This document shows positions 7,401-52,942 of a DNA stretch of 64,000 nt, piece by piece. Position 1 is the stretch's first letter, and every line of letters begins with the position of its first letter. The stretch is from Fulvivirgaceae bacterium JP3-4 (lineage in GTDB: Bacteria; Bacteroidota; Bacteroidia; Cytophagales; Cyclobacteriaceae): contig JARKND010000001.1 of the NCBI GenBank assembly GCA_029309925.1, forward strand, positions 868,001 to 932,000, in the 5' to 3' direction. The notes below the pieces were generated by a model, which did no database searches, was not told the origin of the DNA, and was given only the letters and a program-made list of their open reading frames with translations. The position numbers were made by a program, and so were the translations under genes.

Positions 7401-7557
7401 TAGTCACTAGTCATTAGTCACTAGTCATTGGGAGTAATCGGGAAATGGAAAAAAGAAAAATGGTAGTGAGGATTAGCTAATCAATTTCGTTTTGCCGTTT
7501 CCTTTTTCCCTCTTTACATATTTCTCCCAGTTACCAGTAACTAATGACTAGTTACTA
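7401..7557. repeat. Long inverted repeat built from 7-base units
   Basis: The left arm (7401-7434) begins with four 7-base units, TAGTCAC/TAGTCAT alternating, then TGGGAG. The right arm (7524-7557) is its reverse complement at 29 of 34 positions and also steps in 7s (ACCAGTA, ACTAATG, ACTAGTT). Between them are purine-rich and pyrimidine-rich halves that can pair further, with a perfect palindrome GATTAGCTAATC (7471-7482) near the centre. The whole 157 bases can fold into one hairpin. It fills the gap between lpxD and the HD hydrolase gene. Confidence 0.8.
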
Positions 7558-12761: not shown

Positions 12762-15398
12762 TTACGCCAACCTTGCGAGTGACTCTTCCAGCGATTTAAT
12801 CTTCGCCTCGGCATCAGCTTTTTTCTTGCGTTCGTTCTCTAACACCTGGGGAGGTGCTCCTGAAACGAATTTTTCATTCGACAACTTCTTCTCAACGCTG
12901 GCTAAAAATCCTTTCTGATAATCAATGTCTTTGAGGATTGTCTCGCGTTCTTTTGCAGTATCTACCTTTCCCTCCATCGGAATAAAGAACTCCGTAGACT
13001 TCACCACGAATGGTGTTGAGGGCGTAGCGGGTGCTTCCTTGACGAATGTCACTTCACTCACATTCGACAATTTCTTAACGATGCCCCAGAAAGATCTGAT
13101 CGGTGCATGCTCACCGTTCTTCACCAGAAGCTTCATTGCTTCTTTTGGAGAAATTCCCTTGGCATTGCGCGTGTTCCGGACCTCGGTGATCACTTCAAAA
13201 CTGGTCACCGCTTCATCCAGAATTTTCTGATCAAATTGTCCCGGCTGCGGAGCAGGTGCAACAATGATTGCGTCTTTCCCTCCGCGATCCTTCAACTCAT
13301 GCCACAGCTCTTCGGTGATAAATGGCATGAACGGATGAAGTGCCTTCAATAATGTCTCAAAGAAAACAATAGTCTGTTCATATGTGGTCTGATCGATCGG
13401 TTTGCCAAATTCCGGCTTAACCATCTCCAGGTACCACGAACAGAAGTCGTCCCACACGAGTTTGTATATCGCGTGAAGCGCATCAGAAATTCTAAACTTG
13501 CTGAAGTGGTCTTCAATTTCTATCAGCGATTGATTCAGCTGCGACTGAAACCACTGGATCGCAATCTTGTTTTCTTCAGGCTGACTTGCTCCCGTGGTCC
13601 AGCCTTTCACAAGACGAAAAGCATTCCAGATCTTGTTTGCAAAATTTCTCCCCTGCTCGATCAGTTTCTCATCGTAAAGCAAATCATTTCCGGCAGGCGC
13701 AGAGAACAGCATCCCCGTTCGCACCGCGTCTGCACCATGGGTGGCAATGAGGTCGAGCGGATCGGGCGAGTTACCCAACGACTTAGACATCTTTCGTCCT
13801 TGCTTGTCGCGTACGATTCCCGTGAGATAGACATTGCTGAATGGTTTTTCACCACGGTACTCATACCCCGCAATGATCATCCTCGCTACCCAGAAGAACA
13901 AGATCTCAGGAGCAGTAACCAGGTCGTTTGTTGGATAGTAATAATTGAGGTCTTTGTTTCCTTTGTTGTATGGAGCTTTGAAAACAGTGGTATCGAATAC
14001 CGCTATCGGCCAGAGCCAGCTCGAAAACCACGTATCCATCACATCCGGATCTTGCGTCAGCTTTTGGCTTTTGGAATTTGGATATTGGCGCTTGTATTTT
14101 TCCTGAGCCTCTTGCTCTGTTTTGGCAACGACAAAATTTCCCTCTTCATCAAACCAAGCTGGGATTCGGTGACCCCACCACAGCTGACGCGAAATGCACC
14201 AGTCGCGTACGTTCGACATCCAATGGTTGTACGTGTTCTTGAATTTCGGTGGCAGAAGCTGGATCGTGTCGTCCATCACATGCTTGTGTGCAGGCCGGGT
14301 GATCTCGCCCATTGTCAAAAACCATTGCAGCGACAAGCGCGGCTCAATCACTGCATCAGTTCGTTCTGAAAACCCAACATGGCTAGTGTAGTCTTCGACT
14401 TTTGCAAGATGGTCTTCTGCTTCAAGCATCTTTGCAATTTTCTTACGTGCAACAAAACGATCTTCACCCACGAGTATCTGCGCATTTGAATTGAGTGTCG
14501 CGTCCTCATTGAGAATATCGATCACCGGAAGGTTGTGTTTCTTTCCGAGTTCGTTGTCGTTCATGTCGTGGGCAGGTGTTACTTTTAAACAGCCCGTACC
14601 GAAATCCATAGCGACATAGTCGTCTTCAATGATTGGGATTGCGCGGTTGATCAGCGGGATCAGCACTTTCTTCCCCTTCAGGTGTTTGTAACGGTCGTCA
14701 TTCGGATTAACGCAGATGGCAGTATCCGCCATAATCGTTTCGGGGCGAACGGTCGCGATCGTTACAAAGTCGTTCGAGCCCTCGATTTTGTATTTGATGT
14801 AATACAGCTTCGAGGCAACGTCTTTGTGAATCACTTCATCGTCTGAGAGCGCGGTTTTACCAACCGGGTCCCAGTTGACCATCCGAAGGCCCCTGTAAAT
14901 ATTTCCTTTGTTATAGAGATCGATGAAAACGTCAATGACGGCATCGTAGTAGTCGGGATCCATCGTGAACGTAGTGCGATCCCAGTCGCATGAGGCACCG
15001 AGTTTCTTTAACTGTTCGAGGATAATCCCACCGTATTTCTCTTTCCACTCCCACGCGTATTTTAGAAAGTCTTCACGCGAGAGATCGGATTTTTTGATTC
15101 CCCGCTCGCGCAGCATGGCAACAACTTTGGCTTCGGTTGCAATAGACGCGTGGTCGGTACCGGGTACCCAGCATGCCTCTTTTCCCTGCATTCGCGCCCT
15201 GCGCACAAGAATATCCTGAATGGTATTGTTGAGCATGTGGCCCATGTGCAATACCCCGGTTACGTTTGGCGGGGGAATCACAATACAGAAAGGCTCTTTA
15301 TCCGGGTTGGGTTCCGAATGAAAAAAACCATGCTGTAGCCAGTAGCTATACCATTTGTTCTCTACTTCCTGTGGGTTGTACTTGGTTGATAAAGACAT
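12762..15398 (-). CDS. valS: Valyl-tRNA synthetase
   Basis: This class I synthetase charges tRNA-Val. With the start at 15398 it has 878 residues. The HIGH motif is HMGH at residues 51-54, and [10 protein letters not shown] is the KMSKS loop. Anticodon-binding and C-terminal coiled-coil regions complete it. A longer frame (to 15470) exists, but a clear Shine-Dalgarno at 15406-15411 supports the inner start. Residues about 437-446 ([10 protein letters not shown]) are encoded by a 7-base periodic array and look like an insertion in a variable stretch before [18 protein letters not shown]. Confidence 0.96.
14063..14090 (-). repeat. 7-base periodic array inside valS
   Basis: On the plus strand four consecutive units read TTTGGCT, TTTGGAA, TTTGGAT, ATTGGCG. 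On the coding strand this gives CCAAAT/CCAAAA-like steps, very close to the intergenic arrays at 59211-59346. It encodes residues from R437 of ValRS. Confidence 0.75.
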
Positions 15399-15448: not shown

Positions 15449-15534
15449 AAGAAATTCGAACAAAAGCCACTTTTTACTTACACTCCAATCCAACCGGCTT
15501 GCTGTATTCGTAAATTGTACAAACTAAGGAAGAA

Positions 15535-15620
15535 TTTAAGATTTGAGATTTTAGATTTTAGATTCTAGAATCAATCCAAAGTCCGAAATCTTAAATCTTA
15601 AATCTTGAATCTTAAATCAA
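15535..15620. repeat. Inverted repeat of 7-base units (AAATCTT family)
   Basis: The left arm has five units: TTTAAGA, TTTGAGA, TTTTAGA, TTTTAGA, TTCTAGA (15535-15569). The right arm has AAATCTT three times, then GAATCTT and AAATCAA (15586-15620). The arms are nearly reverse complements, with a loop of about 16 bases. The element ends 4 bases before the MFS gene start. Confidence 0.85.
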
Positions 15621-15624
15621 TTTA

Positions 15625-16761
15625 ATGGAAACCGTATCGATCCCTAAAACCGAAGTCCGCCAGTCAGATGCTATTCATTGGAAACAACTTTGGAGTCTTG
15701 CTGCACTTTACGCTTCGATCATCATCGGATGGATTGCCTACCAGAACTATCAGCCGAAGTTGCTGATCCAGTTCGGGTTTACGGACTTTGCATTTTTTCT
15801 TGCGGTGTCACAGGCCATTATCCTGGTAGTAACGCCACCGATCGCAGGAAAGATGGGCGACCGTTTTCGCTTTGAGAAAGGACACAGGCTTCCTGTAATT
15901 TCTTCCGGGATAAGTTTTGCCGCGATGGTGTTCATGGCGGTAGCCTTCACGTTGTTTTCAAACCCCGGTGAAGTATTCAAGTGGGCGCTGCCGGTTATGA
16001 TTGTGTTGTGGTTGGTGGCCATGAGCATTTTTACAAGCCCGGCTTTGTCGACAGTCGAGTTGTTTACGCCCATTGACAAGCTTCCTAAGGCAATGGCATT
16101 ACTAACCATCGTAGCAAACCTCGTGTATGCCATCGAACCGGTGATTGTCGACATCATCGACTTTCTTGGAGCGCCACTCACATTTGTTGTCGGAGGTGTT
16201 GTCACGCTCGCATCCGGTTACGCGATGAAGAAGAACTCGCTTGGCCTTTTCAAACAGACCGGAAACAAAGAAGTTGCTCCAAACAAGAACCAGGAAAAAA
16301 CAACTGCTTCATCTTTTGCTTTTATTTTTCTTCTTGGAATAATTCTCGGAATCGGAACCACTGTAATGTTCAACATTTTTCCTGACGTACTTGCCACCAA
16401 GCTTTCTTCGATCCTGAATAATACGAGTGGGAAATTAATTCTTGTCGGGATGCTGATATTTTCTGCGATACTTTCGTGGCCGATCAGCACTTACATCAAC
16501 AAGTATAGTATGGACAATGTATTCTGGACAAGCGCTGCTTTGATCGCACTGAGCATGGGCGGGATCTTTTTATTTGACATCAGCTGGGTTGTACTTGCCC
16601 TCGTTGTGCTCTTTACAGTGATGATGACGGCCTTGTCGGTGAGCTCGCTTCCACTGGCAATCAATCGCTCAGGCTTCTACGACAAAGTATTTTGTGTCGG
16701 AATTTTCTTCAGCGGAGTAGCGGTTCCCGAAGGAATTTTTGAATCGATCCAGGTTTGGTGA
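15625..16761 (+). CDS. Major facilitator superfamily transporter
   Basis: The 378-residue inner membrane protein has ten or more hydrophobic segments. The loop after the second segment reads GKMGDRFRFEKGHR, the MFS motif between helices 2 and 3 (GxxxDRxxxxxxR). The central loop (KQTGNKEVAPNKNQEK) is charged and divides the two halves. The substrate cannot be inferred. It is a single gene between two 7-base repeat arrays. Confidence 0.82.
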   Translation: METVSIPKTEVRQSDAIHWKQLWSLAALYASIIIGWIAYQNYQPKLLIQFGFTDFAFFLAVSQAIILVVTPPIAGKMGDRFRFEKGHRLPVISSGISFAAMVFMAVAFTLFSNPGEVFKWALPVMIVLWLVAMSIFTSPALSTVELFTPIDKLPKAMALLTIVANLVYAIEPVIVDIIDFLGAPLTFVVGGVVTLASGYAMKKNSLGLFKQTGNKEVAPNKNQEKTTASSFAFIFLLGIILGIGTTVMFNIFPDVLATKLSSILNNTSGKLILVGMLIFSAILSWPISTYINKYSMDNVFWTSAALIALSMGGIFLFDISWVVLALVVLFTVMMTALSVSSLPLAINRSGFYDKVFCVGIFFSGVAVPEGIFESIQVW

Positions 16762-16766
16762 AATTC

Positions 16767-16850
16767 AGGTTCAAGGTTCAAGGTTTAAGGTTTAAGGTTT
16801 AAGGTTTAAGGGTTCGTGTTCCGTGTTTCGTGTTCAGGGGTTCGGGTTGC
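16767..16850. repeat. Twelve consecutive 7-base units
   Basis: From 16767 the sequence steps in exact 7s without a break: AGGTTCA twice, AGGTTTA four times, AGGGTTC, GTGTTCC, GTGTTTC, GTGTTCA, GGGGTTC, GGGTTGC. The unit drifts gradually along the array while the period stays fixed. It lies between the convergent MFS and rsmF-like genes. Confidence 0.9.
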
Positions 16851-16867: not shown

Positions 16868-18214
16868 TTAGACTTTAAGATTGGTACGGATGCGCCAGTC
16901 GATCGGGTAGAGGTTGTTGAAACGGTTCCCGAGGCTATTGATCCAGCCCAAGGGGACGCCTTCGAATGTGACCAGCTGAAAACCTCTTTCCTTATCAGTC
17001 CATGAAAATGTTTCACGTCTCAGATATTGAATTGCTTCATCGAAGCTTAGTTCTGCCGTGTCGAAATTTTCTTTGTTGATATGAATGCTCATCGCGGACG
17101 CATGTTCGGGAACCACTTTATCGTGCTTGAGTGATGCGAGCGTTGTGCCTGCCTGACCGAGTCTTAAGTTTTGTTTAACCAACTCCAAAATTTCATTCTT
17201 TGCTTTCGGAAAAATGAAGACGTACTCCTGATGCTGAAAGAAGTCAAAAGTTTCCGCGCGGCTGATCCAGCTTGTCAACGTTTCCTGAACTTTTTTTGAA
17301 GGAGTGGTAACTGTCTTTTTTATTTTATGGATACCGGTTGTCGATTCTTTCTTGCGTATTGCGGAGATGAAAAAGCCTTCACCTTTAACCCGATGCGGAT
17401 AAAAGCGATATCCTTTAATCGCATTGTTAACCTCTACAACACCCCATGCCGGATCAAGACGCATCCGCAGGAATTCCACAGCATGATTTTGCTGAAGCCA
17501 CAGCAGGTTCTCTTCGTTCTCCTTTTCGTTATATGTGCACGTTGAGTACACCAATATTCCGTTTTCTTTCAGCGCGGGCCAAACGTCTGCCAGAATTCTT
17601 TTTTGCCTGCTTGCACAGAGGTTGACATTGTCGGGTGACCATTCATTCATCGCGTCAGGTTCTTTACGAAAAAGTCCTTCGCCTGAGCAGGGAGCGTCAA
17701 CCAGAATCACATCAAAGAGTCCAGGAAGCCTTTCAAAATCTTTCGGATCGTTGTTTGTGACGAGGCTGTTGGGATGACCCCATTTCAGAATATTCTCAGC
17801 GAGTATTGTAGCGCGCGCCCGGATGACTTCATTTGAAATCAAAATACTCTCAACATCGATCAGGCTGAGGATGTGCGTTGACTTTCCACCGGGTGCCGCG
17901 GACAAATCGAGAATATTTAAGCCGGTTGAATTGACGTGCTGCCGGAGAACCTGTTCTAGGAACATGGAGCTCGCTTCCTGTACGTAATAGGTTCCTGCAT
18001 GGAACAGCGGGTCAAAAGTAAATTTCGGGCGCTCGTTCAGGTAGTAACCAAATTCAGTCCATGGTACTCTATCGGCTGACGGAATAGAATTTCGCTTTCG
18101 CGGATTGATACGTACGCTGACAGGAGAATGTTCGTTGAGGCTCTCGCGAAACGCGTTAAACTCGCTGCCAAGTTTCTCTTTGATCTTGTTCTCAAACTCA
18201 TCCGGGATCGTCAT
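16868..18214 (-). CDS. RsmF/Nop2/Sun-family RNA cytosine-5 methyltransferase
   Basis: The 448-residue protein has the SAM-binding motif DLSAAPGGKSTH, the DAPCSGEGLFRK motif with one catalytic Cys, and the YSTCTYN motif with the other, as in m5C methyltransferases. The C-terminal domain of about 150 residues resembles that of RsmF/YebU, which modifies 16S rRNA; the exact target base is inferred. It is divergent from fahA, with 74 bases between the two starts. Confidence 0.88.
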   Translation of the reverse strand: MTIPDEFENKIKEKLGSEFNAFRESLNEHSPVSVRINPRKRNSIPSADRVPWTEFGYYLNERPKFTFDPLFHAGTYYVQEASSMFLEQVLRQHVNSTGLNILDLSAAPGGKSTHILSLIDVESILISNEVIRARATILAENILKWGHPNSLVTNNDPKDFERLPGLFDVILVDAPCSGEGLFRKEPDAMNEWSPDNVNLCASRQKRILADVWPALKENGILVYSTCTYNEKENEENLLWLQQNHAVEFLRMRLDPAWGVVEVNNAIKGYRFYPHRVKGEGFFISAIRKKESTTGIHKIKKTVTTPSKKVQETLTSWISRAETFDFFQHQEYVFIFPKAKNEILELVKQNLRLGQAGTTLASLKHDKVVPEHASAMSIHINKENFDTAELSFDEAIQYLRRETFSWTDKERGFQLVTFEGVPLGWINSLGNRFNNLYPIDWRIRTNLKV

Positions 18215-32960: not shown

Positions 32961-34325
32961 TCAGAATTGTTTGATGATTTGATCGATAGTGAGTTTCTGC
33001 TGTTCACCGTTAGTCATGTTCTTAAACGCCAGCGCTCCGGTACTCACTTCTTCAGAGCCAATAACGATGGTGAACGGAATCATCTTCTTATTCGCAAAGT
33101 CAAGTTGTTTTTTGATTTTGGAAAGATCCGGGTAAATCTCTGAAGCAATGCCTGCCTGACGGAGTTTTGAAAGCACACCAAGTCCGTAACGAAAACTTTC
33201 ATCATCGAAATAGCAAATCAGAACTTTGGAGGAAACCTGCGCATCCTTCGGGAAAAGATTCAATTCTTCCATGGCATCGTAAATGCGGTCAACGCCAAAA
33301 GAGAATCCCACACCGGAGAGATTTTCCTTATCGCCAAATGCTTTCGTCAGGTTATCGTAGCGCCCACCGCCACTTACGCTTCCTATGCTCACATTGTTGA
33401 TCTTCACTTCGAAAATGCAGCCCGTGTAATAGCTTAAGCCTCGCGCGAGTGCGACATCGAGTTCGACATTGGATTCATCAGAACCGTAATCGCGCAGGAA
33501 ATCAAAAACGAGGCGCAGGTCGCGCAGGCCCTTTTGTCCGGAAGCTATGGTCTCGAATTCCTTAAACAGCACAGCAAGCTTGTTGGTGTTGGAGCCTTTG
33601 ACGTTGAGGAGTTGGAATAACTTCGTCAGTGCATTTTCCGAAAAGTTTTTTTCGCGAAGCTCTTCCTTTACTTTTTCTTCTCCGATCTTGTCAAGCTTGT
33701 CGATGGCAACAAACATCGGTGTTTCATTTCCTGCAGCACCGATTGCTTCTGCAATACCATTCAAAATGCCGCGATGATTTATTTTGATTGTATAATCTGT
33801 AATGCCAAGCCCTTTGAAAACTTCCCTGATCATGAGAATGATCTCGGCTTCGCAGATCAGTGAGTCAGTGCCAACAACGTCAGCATCGCACTGGTAGAAT
33901 TCGCGGTATCTTCCCTTCTGGGGACGATCTGCTCTCCACACGGGTTGGATCTGGCATCGCTTGAATGGAAATGCCACTTCGTTCCGGTTCATGACAACGT
34001 AGCGCGCGAACGGAACTGTCAGATCGTAGCGAAGACCTTTCTCAGAGATATCGAATGTTAACTGTTTCGAGTTTCGTGTTTCGAGTTTGGTGGCATCTGC
34101 ATTCTTGAGGTAGTCGCCCGAGTTCAAAATCTTAAACAAAAGCTGGTCGCCTTCTTCTCCGTATTTTCCGGTCAGCGTAGTGAGGTTCTCCATTGCCGGA
34201 GTTTCAAGGGGCATGAAGCCATATTTTTGAAAGACCTTTCGGATGTTATCAAGAATAAATTGCCGTTTGGCCATTGTTGCCGGGCCGAAGTCACGCGTTC
34301 CTTTTGGTAGAGTTGGCTTGTCCAT
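32961..34325 (-). CDS. hisS: Histidyl-tRNA synthetase
   Basis: This class II synthetase charges tRNA-His. From the ATG at 34325 it has 454 residues, starting MDKPTLPKGTRDFGP. Motif 1 is around FMPLETPAMEN, motif 2 holds RYDLTVPFARYV and QPVWRADRPQKGRYREFYQCDADVVG, and the histidine-specific motif is LDVALARGLSYYTGCIFEV. Residues 79-88 (TKLETRNSKQ) are encoded by a 7-base periodic array in a stretch that varies between homologues. The gene leads an operon with hutH, an unusual pairing. Confidence 0.96.
   Translation of the reverse strand: MDKPTLPKGTRDFGPATMAKRQFILDNIRKVFQKYGFMPLETPAMENLTTLTGKYGEEGDQLLFKILNSGDYLKNADATKLETRNSKQLTFDISEKGLRYDLTVPFARYVVMNRNEVAFPFKRCQIQPVWRADRPQKGRYREFYQCDADVVGTDSLICEAEIILMIREVFKGLGITDYTIKINHRGILNGIAEAIGAAGNETPMFVAIDKLDKIGEEKVKEELREKNFSENALTKLFQLLNVKGSNTNKLAVLFKEFETIASGQKGLRDLRLVFDFLRDYGSDESNVELDVALARGLSYYTGCIFEVKINNVSIGSVSGGGRYDNLTKAFGDKENLSGVGFSFGVDRIYDAMEELNLFPKDAQVSSKVLICYFDDESFRYGLGVLSKLRQAGIASEIYPDLSKIKKQLDFANKKMIPFTIVIGSEEVSTGALAFKNMTNGEQQKLTIDQIIKQF
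34064..34091 (-). repeat. 7-base periodic array inside hisS
   Basis: The plus strand reads GTTTCGA, GTTTCGT, GTTTCGA, GTTTGGT in exact 7-base steps. It resembles the GTGTTTC/GTGTTCC units at 16816-16836. It encodes residues 79-88 of HisRS. Confidence 0.75.
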
Positions 34326-40357: not shown

Positions 40358-41086
40358 TTACTGGTCTCTTCTCCGTTTAAAGTTGTTGCCTTTGTGACCG
40401 CCTTTACCAAAATGCTTGTGACCACCACCACCGCCACCATGACGCTGACCACCTGCCTTGCGATCGTTGCGATCGTTGCGTTCATTGCGTTCGTTGCCGC
40501 CACCGCTGCCTTTCTTCCGCTCCTTATATAGTTTTTCAAACAGATTGTCTTCCCGAACTTTTTCGATCGTCATTTTCAGAGCACCGCCAGACATATCCTG
40601 GATATCTTTCAGGATCACAGAGTCATCAATCGTCTCTTTATTCCAGTTGCCATAGAAGGTTTTCATGAGCTTGCCAAGGTAAATGATGGCATCCTCACGC
40701 TCCTGCTCGTCTTCCTTCTTGAGGGCTTCTTTCACAAGCTTCTCAATATTTTTTCCGTAATGCTTGAAGCGCACCTGGCTTTGCGGATACTCAACTTTCA
40801 ATGGCTTCTTGAAAAGAATTTCTCGTGATGGCTTTTCGTACGGACCATTTATATCGAGGTCAAAATCTGCTATGATGTACAGATCATCCCATACGCGCTG
40901 GGGATTCTCAGGTTGATCTTTGATGGTTGGCGTGAGCTGCTTGATGAGTTCGATGAGCGTAAATGCAAGCTCGGTTCTTTTTTCCTTGCTTGGGATATTG
41001 CGGATGTATTCCACAAGCTTCTGGACGTTGCGACCATATTCTTTGAGAATGATATGCGGTCGCTGGGTGTTGTAATCTGCTTCCAT
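40358..41086 (-). CDS. DUF4290 protein with repetitive basic tail
   Basis: The 242-residue protein has a conserved DUF4290 region (MEADYNTQRPHIILKEYGRN to about residue 190). A low-complexity tail of about 48 residues follows, made of Asn-Glu/Asp-Arg repeats and Gly/His/Lys-rich stretches (GGGNERNERNDRNDRKAGG). The repeats are encoded by 9-base direct repeats (GATCGTTGC twice, then variants, on the plus strand near 40460-40495). The tail resembles RNA-binding RGG-like tails. The function of DUF4290 is unknown; it is commonly found next to murA in this phylum. Confidence 0.85.
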   Translation of the reverse strand: MEADYNTQRPHIILKEYGRNVQKLVEYIRNIPSKEKRTELAFTLIELIKQLTPTIKDQPENPQRVWDDLYIIADFDLDINGPYEKPSREILFKKPLKVEYPQSQVRFKHYGKNIEKLVKEALKKEDEQEREDAIIYLGKLMKTFYGNWNKETIDDSVILKDIQDMSGGALKMTIEKVREDNLFEKLYKERKKGSGGGNERNERNDRNDRKAGGQRHGGGGGGHKHFGKGGHKGNNFKRRRDQ

Positions 41087-52772: not shown

Positions 52773-52821
52773 CCAATAATCAATAATCAATAATCAATAA
52801 TCAATAATCAAATCTCAAACA
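52773..52821. repeat. 7-base tandem array TCAATAA
   Basis: Units in exact 7s: CCAATAA, TCAATAA four times, TCAAATC, TCAAACA. The same order (CCAATAA, TCAATAA/CCAAATC, TCAAA..) recurs at 59211 and 60612. Confidence 0.88.
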
Positions 52822-52883: not shown

Positions 52884-52909
52884 AATCCCCAGTTTTCACA
52901 CCAGGGATT
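52884..52909 (-). terminator. Probable terminator of tldE
   Basis: On the minus strand AATCCC (52904-52909) pairs with GGGATT (52884-52889), followed by TTTTT. The inner stem is imperfect. Confidence 0.5.
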
Positions 52910-52942
52910 AAATCTTAAATTTTAAATCTTAAATATTTACAC
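52908..52942. repeat. 7-base periodic array TTAAATC at the tldE stop
   Basis: Units TTAAATC, TTAAATT, TTAAATC, TTAAATA, TTTACAC. The tldE stop codon (52937-52939) lies inside the last unit. Confidence 0.75.

Follow-up and report, generated by a model that had tools for sequence, protein, structure and literature searches.

How does a tandem array of 7-base units come to lie in frame within the gene of an essential enzyme? The question is raised by hisS, the gene of histidyl-tRNA synthetase (HisRS), in a stretch of 64,000 nucleotides from the genome of Fulvivirgaceae bacterium JP3-4, hereafter the window. As cited in two later papers (PMC4679880, PMC4692102), Mrazek et al. (2007) described heptanucleotide repeats as the most abundant class of long simple sequence repeats in prokaryotes, located mostly outside genes, and a slippage mechanism tied to a 7-base contact of the polymerase was proposed. 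One such unit, TAACTGA, forms direct repeats in Beggiatoaceae, Cyanobacteria and some Bacteroidetes (MacGregor 2015, PMC4679880); the mechanism that generates these arrays was given as unknown, and relatives with shorter, repeat-free spacers were reported. An initial annotation of the window took the hisS array for a coding insertion, and suggested that such insertions are tolerated and may be frequent. In this study, we have compared hisS with its homologues in 80 Bacteroidota and 29 further relatives, and have scanned 2.4 of the 5.8 Mb of this genome (G000 C1:1-2400000) for arrays using a home-made gene caller, the search for coding arrays being blind to gene identity.

The hisS array and the prior state of its loop

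The features of the gene are as follows.
32961-34325, minus strand: hisS, histidyl-tRNA synthetase, 454 aa (TIGR00442 match and translation)
34064-34088, minus strand: in-frame 7-base array AAACTCGAAACACGAAACTCGAAAC, coding for K80-Q88 in loop 1 (Tandem Repeats Finder and codon alignment)
33456-33497, minus strand: loop 2 of HisRS, residues 277-290, array-free here and with arrays in six relatives (hisS comparison)

The hisS product matches TIGR00442 with 396.5 bits, above the curated cut-off of 286.75, and a gene for an aromatic amino acid lyase (PF00221; 31464-32957) lies 3 bases downstream on the same strand. Tandem Repeats Finder places the array at 34064-34088, with a period of 7, 3.6 copies of the unit GTTTCGA and a score of 43; an overlapping row with a 14-base period spans 34063-34092. 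On the hisS strand the units read CTCGAAA CACGAAA CTCGAAA, and are thus not those of the TAACTGA repeats. The initial annotation had located the array correctly and assigned it to residues 79-88, of which T79 precedes the stretch K80-Q88. Within the 300 bases around it the array has no inverted partner, the best inverted match being 5 bases. In the AlphaFold model of HisRS the pLDDT falls below 50 at residues 45-77 and 85-101, and the model therefore does not place loop 1, while loop 2 is flanked by a helix at 261-279 and a strand at 287-289.

The segment from ILNSGD to EKGL comprises 33 aa in the window as well as in G001 and G002, both of the same genus, and in the genomes G017 and G019, and the same length is found in Chryseolinea, Pseudochryseolinea, L003-L005 and many Sphingobacteriales; the nearest solved structure, PDB 6nhi_A, aligns without a gap at loop 1. 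The loop is equally long in the genus and in most Bacteroidota, and the lack of any length difference among the same-genus genomes means that whole units have not varied in copy number there. Furthermore, relatives encode a near-identical peptide (KLEARNSK) by other codons. The homologous peptide is QKLEARNSKLVT in G002, AKLEARNSKQIT in L005 and DKLEARNSQSLT in L054, with differing codons, those of L005 being AAG CTG GAG GCC AGA AAC TCC AAA CAA. About three substitutions separate the array from the relatives: 12 of 18 lag-7 matches are already present at the site in the G002 orthologue, and the 25 bases of the array are 80% identical to G002, compared with 73% for the whole gene.

Since the loop is of equal length and its peptide is conserved with other codons, the array is not an insertion, contrary to what had been claimed for HisRS. 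The initial annotation had itself proposed that homologues sharing the peptide with different codons would speak against its view, and such homologues are what the alignment contains. As judged from the aligned sequences, both the length of loop 1 and its peptide skeleton are ancestral. Two metagenome-assembled genomes, L051 (10001-11674) and L044 (236-1708), encode HisRS with ~105 and ~30 extra aa, respectively, at loop 1.

Heptamer arrays between the genes

The spacers of the window include the following arrays.
7401-7427, no strand assigned: intergenic 7-base array TAGTCAC/TAGTCAT (Tandem Repeats Finder)
15534-15618, no strand assigned: inverted array pair, ATTTNAG, a 16-base gap, then AAATCTT (Tandem Repeats Finder and spacer comparison with G002)
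16767-16811, plus strand: intergenic 7-base array AGGTTTA (Tandem Repeats Finder)
16815-16848, plus strand: intergenic array whose units GTTTCGT/GTTCCGT belong to the family seen in hisS (Tandem Repeats Finder and unit search)
52774-52811, no strand assigned: intergenic 7-base array CAATAAT (Tandem Repeats Finder)
52908-52934, no strand assigned: intergenic 7-base array TTAAATC, at a distance of 96 bases from the preceding array (Tandem Repeats Finder)

The arrays at 16767-16848 lie between an MFS gene (15625-16761, plus strand) and the gene of an RsmF-like methyltransferase (16868-18214, minus strand). The resemblance of the hisS units to those at 16816-16836, noted in the initial annotation, is real; however, the latter array is intergenic, located in this MFS/RsmF-like spacer. 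Outside hisS, doublets of the unit C-N-C-G-R-A-A are mainly intergenic, including the one at window position 16819. The inverted pair at 15534-15618 takes up 85 bases, and the spacer that holds it is exactly 85 bases longer than its counterpart in G002, although the gap in the automatic alignment does not fall cleanly on the pair.

In the 2.4 Mb scanned, 110 arrays of period 7 are intergenic, 12 lie at gene edges and 5 were called coding, most of these because of over-extended starts, and any other period yields 0-22 intergenic arrays (19 for period 8 and 22 for period 14). The variation among the units of an array concentrates at one or two of the seven positions, the top two phases holding 87% of the deviations against 65% under the null. 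Neighbouring arrays that share a spacer are inverted to one another in 47 cases, against 5.8 with permuted partners, and direct in 12, against 2.6; in addition, convergent spacers are enriched and divergent ones depleted. The commonest family, AAGCTNC, matches this genome 81 times; the two same-genus genomes lack it, and of 38 relatives two contain a single match each. Because families of this type are private to one genome and yet dispersed through it, we infer that units have been copied between sites, rather than having arisen by independent slippage at each.

Several features of the spacers were observed along the way. Period 8 forms a smaller second intergenic class, with 7 arrays of period 16 and 8 of period 24 in addition to its 19, and periods 5, 6, 9, 10 and 11 are almost missing. 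The inverted pairs, present in ~47 spacers, enclose unrelated middles of ~10-240 bases, and their arrays usually begin no more than 10 bases from a flanking gene. The idea that paired arrays bracket the conserved core of a mobile element was rejected, a single short match being found among the 47 middles. The variable base of AAGCTNC is A, G or T and never C in this genome, and at G000 C1:1017435-1018300 an array of this family is part of a ~130-base unit that is itself repeated ~6 times in tandem. A nearly perfect GATTTAA array of 180 bases lies directly at a gene end (G000 C1:1055300-1055480).

Arrays in synthetase genes and in the HisRS loops of relatives

The initial annotation had counted two synthetase arrays in the window, and the one besides hisS proves to be that of valyl-tRNA synthetase (ValRS).
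12762-15398, minus strand: valS, valyl-tRNA synthetase, with a longer ORF start at 15470 (Pfam PF00133, PF08264, PF10458)
14060-14089, minus strand: 7-base array TCCAAAT TCCAAAA GCCAAAA GC in valS (Tandem Repeats Finder), of the same length as the G002 orthologue

Apart from a few short arrays, the scan of 2.4 Mb yielded three arrays in gene interiors with close intergenic counterparts, located in the genes of HisRS, ValRS and leucyl-tRNA synthetase (LeuRS). In the LeuRS gene (G000 C1:1104380-1107184), the units GAAAGCA GAAAGCG GAAAGCA TAAAGCA stand in frame near residue 155 and match intergenic AAAGCNN arrays; over the match spans, to which the comparison is restricted, there is no net length change relative to G002. 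The best match to an intergenic array scores 18 (of 25) for HisRS, 21 for ValRS and 23 for LeuRS, and shuffled coding arrays reach at least 18 against the intergenic arrays 0.056 times per set. Two of the five matching shuffles, though, look like re-shuffles of the hisS peptide of the window itself, so that ValRS and LeuRS contribute most to this result, which is weak evidence for hisS taken by itself. Synthetases make up ~1% of coding DNA. That all three matching arrays are located in them looks unusual given this share, a pattern that was noticed after the fact.

In the 1.88 Mb of interior coding DNA, two arrays score at least 12 against 0.2 expected from synonymous shuffles, and seven score at least 10 against 1.65 expected. 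When the hisS loop peptide is shuffled synonymously with the gene's own codons, a score of at least 12 is reached in 1.4% of the shuffles. Lag-7 matching is highest of the tested lags between genes (0.286); within genes it is 0.2437, similar to nearby lags indivisible by three. A general 7-base periodicity of genes is thereby ruled out, and the suggestion that coding arrays may be frequent fails for coding DNA at large, the lag-7 autocorrelation of genes (0.244) being at background. Four coding hits (318507, 1609509, 2222357 and 855113) were discarded because their starts were over-extended or the small ORFs spurious. An array of another period, TTGCGATCG, lies at 40458-40497 of the window, with a period of 9 and 4.4 copies, within an ORF on the minus strand (40358-41086).

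The hisS comparison gave a different picture for the variable loops. Arrays of period 7 with a score of at least 9 occur in 9 of 110 hisS genes, where synonymous shuffles predict 0.69, and other lags give 0-2 arrays each; in-frame arrays in variable synthetase loops, the point from which the initial annotation had set out, are thus in excess of chance. All nine are confined to two loops, residues 75-88 (loop 1: the window, L075 and L071) and residues 277-290 (loop 2: L054, L059, L065, L067, L068 and L069); L065 and L068, being near-identical, represent a single case. In loop 1, two arrays score at least 12 against 0.037 expected from synonymous shuffles of the hisS set, and in loop 2 six score at least 10 against 0.19 expected.

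The units differ from lineage to lineage. In loop 2, CTCAATA runs perfectly over 34 bases in L059, where the loop is longer by 5 residues, and CTCATAC over 31 bases in L054, where it is longer by 3. L075 has arrays built from CAACTCN in its loop 1, the length of which is unchanged, and its loop 2, longer by 15 residues, consists of similar degenerate units; its loop 1 array spans 35 bases and is unrelated to that of the window, and the array of L071 is weaker. Doublets of such units turn up at other places of the genomes that carry them, CTCAATA at several further sites in L059, CTCATAC at three further sites in L054, and the Mucilaginibacter unit GCCAACT at three to four further sites in each of L065 and L067, the reversed-pattern control giving 0 in every case; no GCCAACT doublets were found in the genomes of L079 and L080, whose hisS genes have no array. 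In L065 and L068 (11671-14287), a large gene beside hisS in Mucilaginibacter holds an in-frame array of ACTCAAG/ACTCAGG/ACTTCAG/ACTTCGG before an ISATIGN motif.

Origin of the hisS array and its relation to known repeats

The reading that we favour, and consider reasonably probable, is that the hisS array stems from a genome-wide process which forms heptamer arrays and is tolerated, within genes, in a few synthetase loops, here with a length-neutral outcome. Such a process would build 7-base arrays and spread them, each genome having its private unit families. Nearly all arrays persist in spacers alone, many of them inversely paired; within genes, the few that are kept would be length-compatible outcomes in variable loops that tolerate almost any peptide, such as loop 1 (~75-92) and loop 2 (~277-290) of HisRS. 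In the window, loop 1 pre-existed and the array was completed inside it at constant length. Over the conserved codons of K-L-E-x-R-N-S-K this required ~3 substitutions, in which a GCC/GCG-like Ala codon became ACA and CGC/CGT became CGA. Candidate routes are correction on a misaligned template at a 7-base offset, and ectopic conversion of a partly matching sequence by an intergenic array. The data show the spread of unit families, the confinement to spacers, the inverted pairing, the recurrence in two HisRS loops and the constant length of loop 1 in the window; one mutational process may have made both the window array and the others, through misaligned or ectopic copying in a 7-base register rather than by insertion. 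Counted against it are the ~3 substitutions that suffice to derive the window array from a conserved peptide, the modest shuffle probability of the loop (1.4%) and the missing inverted partner, in which the hisS array is unlike many intergenic ones.

The main rival for the hisS array of the window, and a serious one, is chance, which we hold to be possible although clearly less probable. The conserved L-E-x-R-N-S-K would happen to be encoded with two copies of CTCGAA at a distance of 14 bases, and the unit between them would have been filled by ordinary drift towards Thr-Arg (ACA CGA), with no tie to the intergenic arrays. The ancestral peptide and loop length with their varied codons agree with this, as do the few changes on the window lineage, the same 1.4%, the lack of a general lag-7 signal in coding DNA, and a best intergenic match of just 18 of 25. 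However, loop 1 also holds the unrelated L075 array and the weaker one of L071, the arrays of the 110 hisS genes all fall in two loops, and three of this genome's interior coding arrays belong to synthetase genes and resemble arrays of its spacers. Pure coincidence is weakened because arrays appeared in the hisS genes of other lineages.

That heptamer units were recently inserted in frame into hisS is very improbable: insertions into loop 1 do occur in L051 and L044, and loop 2 is longer where its arrays are best (L059, L054 and L075), but loop 1 of the window has exactly the 33 aa of all its closest genomes and of PDB 6nhi, and its conserved peptide is written in other codons by relatives. 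We give even less credence to a selected element, in which the repeat would act in the hisS mRNA or DNA, for instance as a regulator-binding site. A post-transcriptional role has been proposed for the TAACTGA arrays upstream of start codons in Beggiatoaceae (PMC4679880); the hisS unit, however, differs between lineages, most hisS genes are array-free, and the site lies well inside the gene.

The process that we favour shares features with several described systems. The heptanucleotide repeats of Mrazek et al., as presented in the papers citing them, resemble the arrays of this genome in their 7-base units and mainly intergenic location; this genome differs in its many private unit families, the frequent inverted pairing and the in-frame copies in synthetase loops. 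TAACTGA repeats likewise form dispersed 7-base arrays, mostly intergenic with few in ORFs, but that system has one fixed unit, located upstream of starts, its 'forward' units are rich in stop codons and its copies in ORFs lie mainly at protein ends, whereas here dozens of units are seen, and internal loops of essential enzymes are involved. The GGGAATC/GGGANTN arrays of Xanthomonas and Nostoc (PMC4692102) also combine fixed and variable heptamer positions near gene ends, yet they are G-rich and quadruplex-forming, while the units here are mostly A+T-rich and lack G-runs.

Rickettsia palindromic elements are palindromic insertions of conserved sequence that lie in frame inside protein genes. 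They provide a parallel for short repeated DNA tolerated in frame in housekeeping genes, but the window array has no conserved core and adds no residues relative to array-free homologues. No description of arrays in synthetase loops or of inverted array pairs was found in the literature searched, outside which many subscription papers fall; intergenic heptamer arrays are known, and what that literature appears to lack is the recurrence of arrays in HisRS loops and their pairing in inverted orientation.

The private families bear on why 7-base repeats outnumber those of other periods in many bacteria. The process can be put to the test where homologous loops of one essential gene hold arrays, because the alignment gives the prior state and the reading frame gives the tolerated outcomes. 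More broadly, and only tentatively, it may be that in some Bacteroidota genome-private 7-base families are copied between sites, come to rest in spacers as inverted pairs that enclose unrelated middles, and also overwrite tolerant loops of essential synthetases without changing their length. If this is true, it would represent an unrecognised copying process in a 7-base register, with the HisRS loops as its natural reporter.
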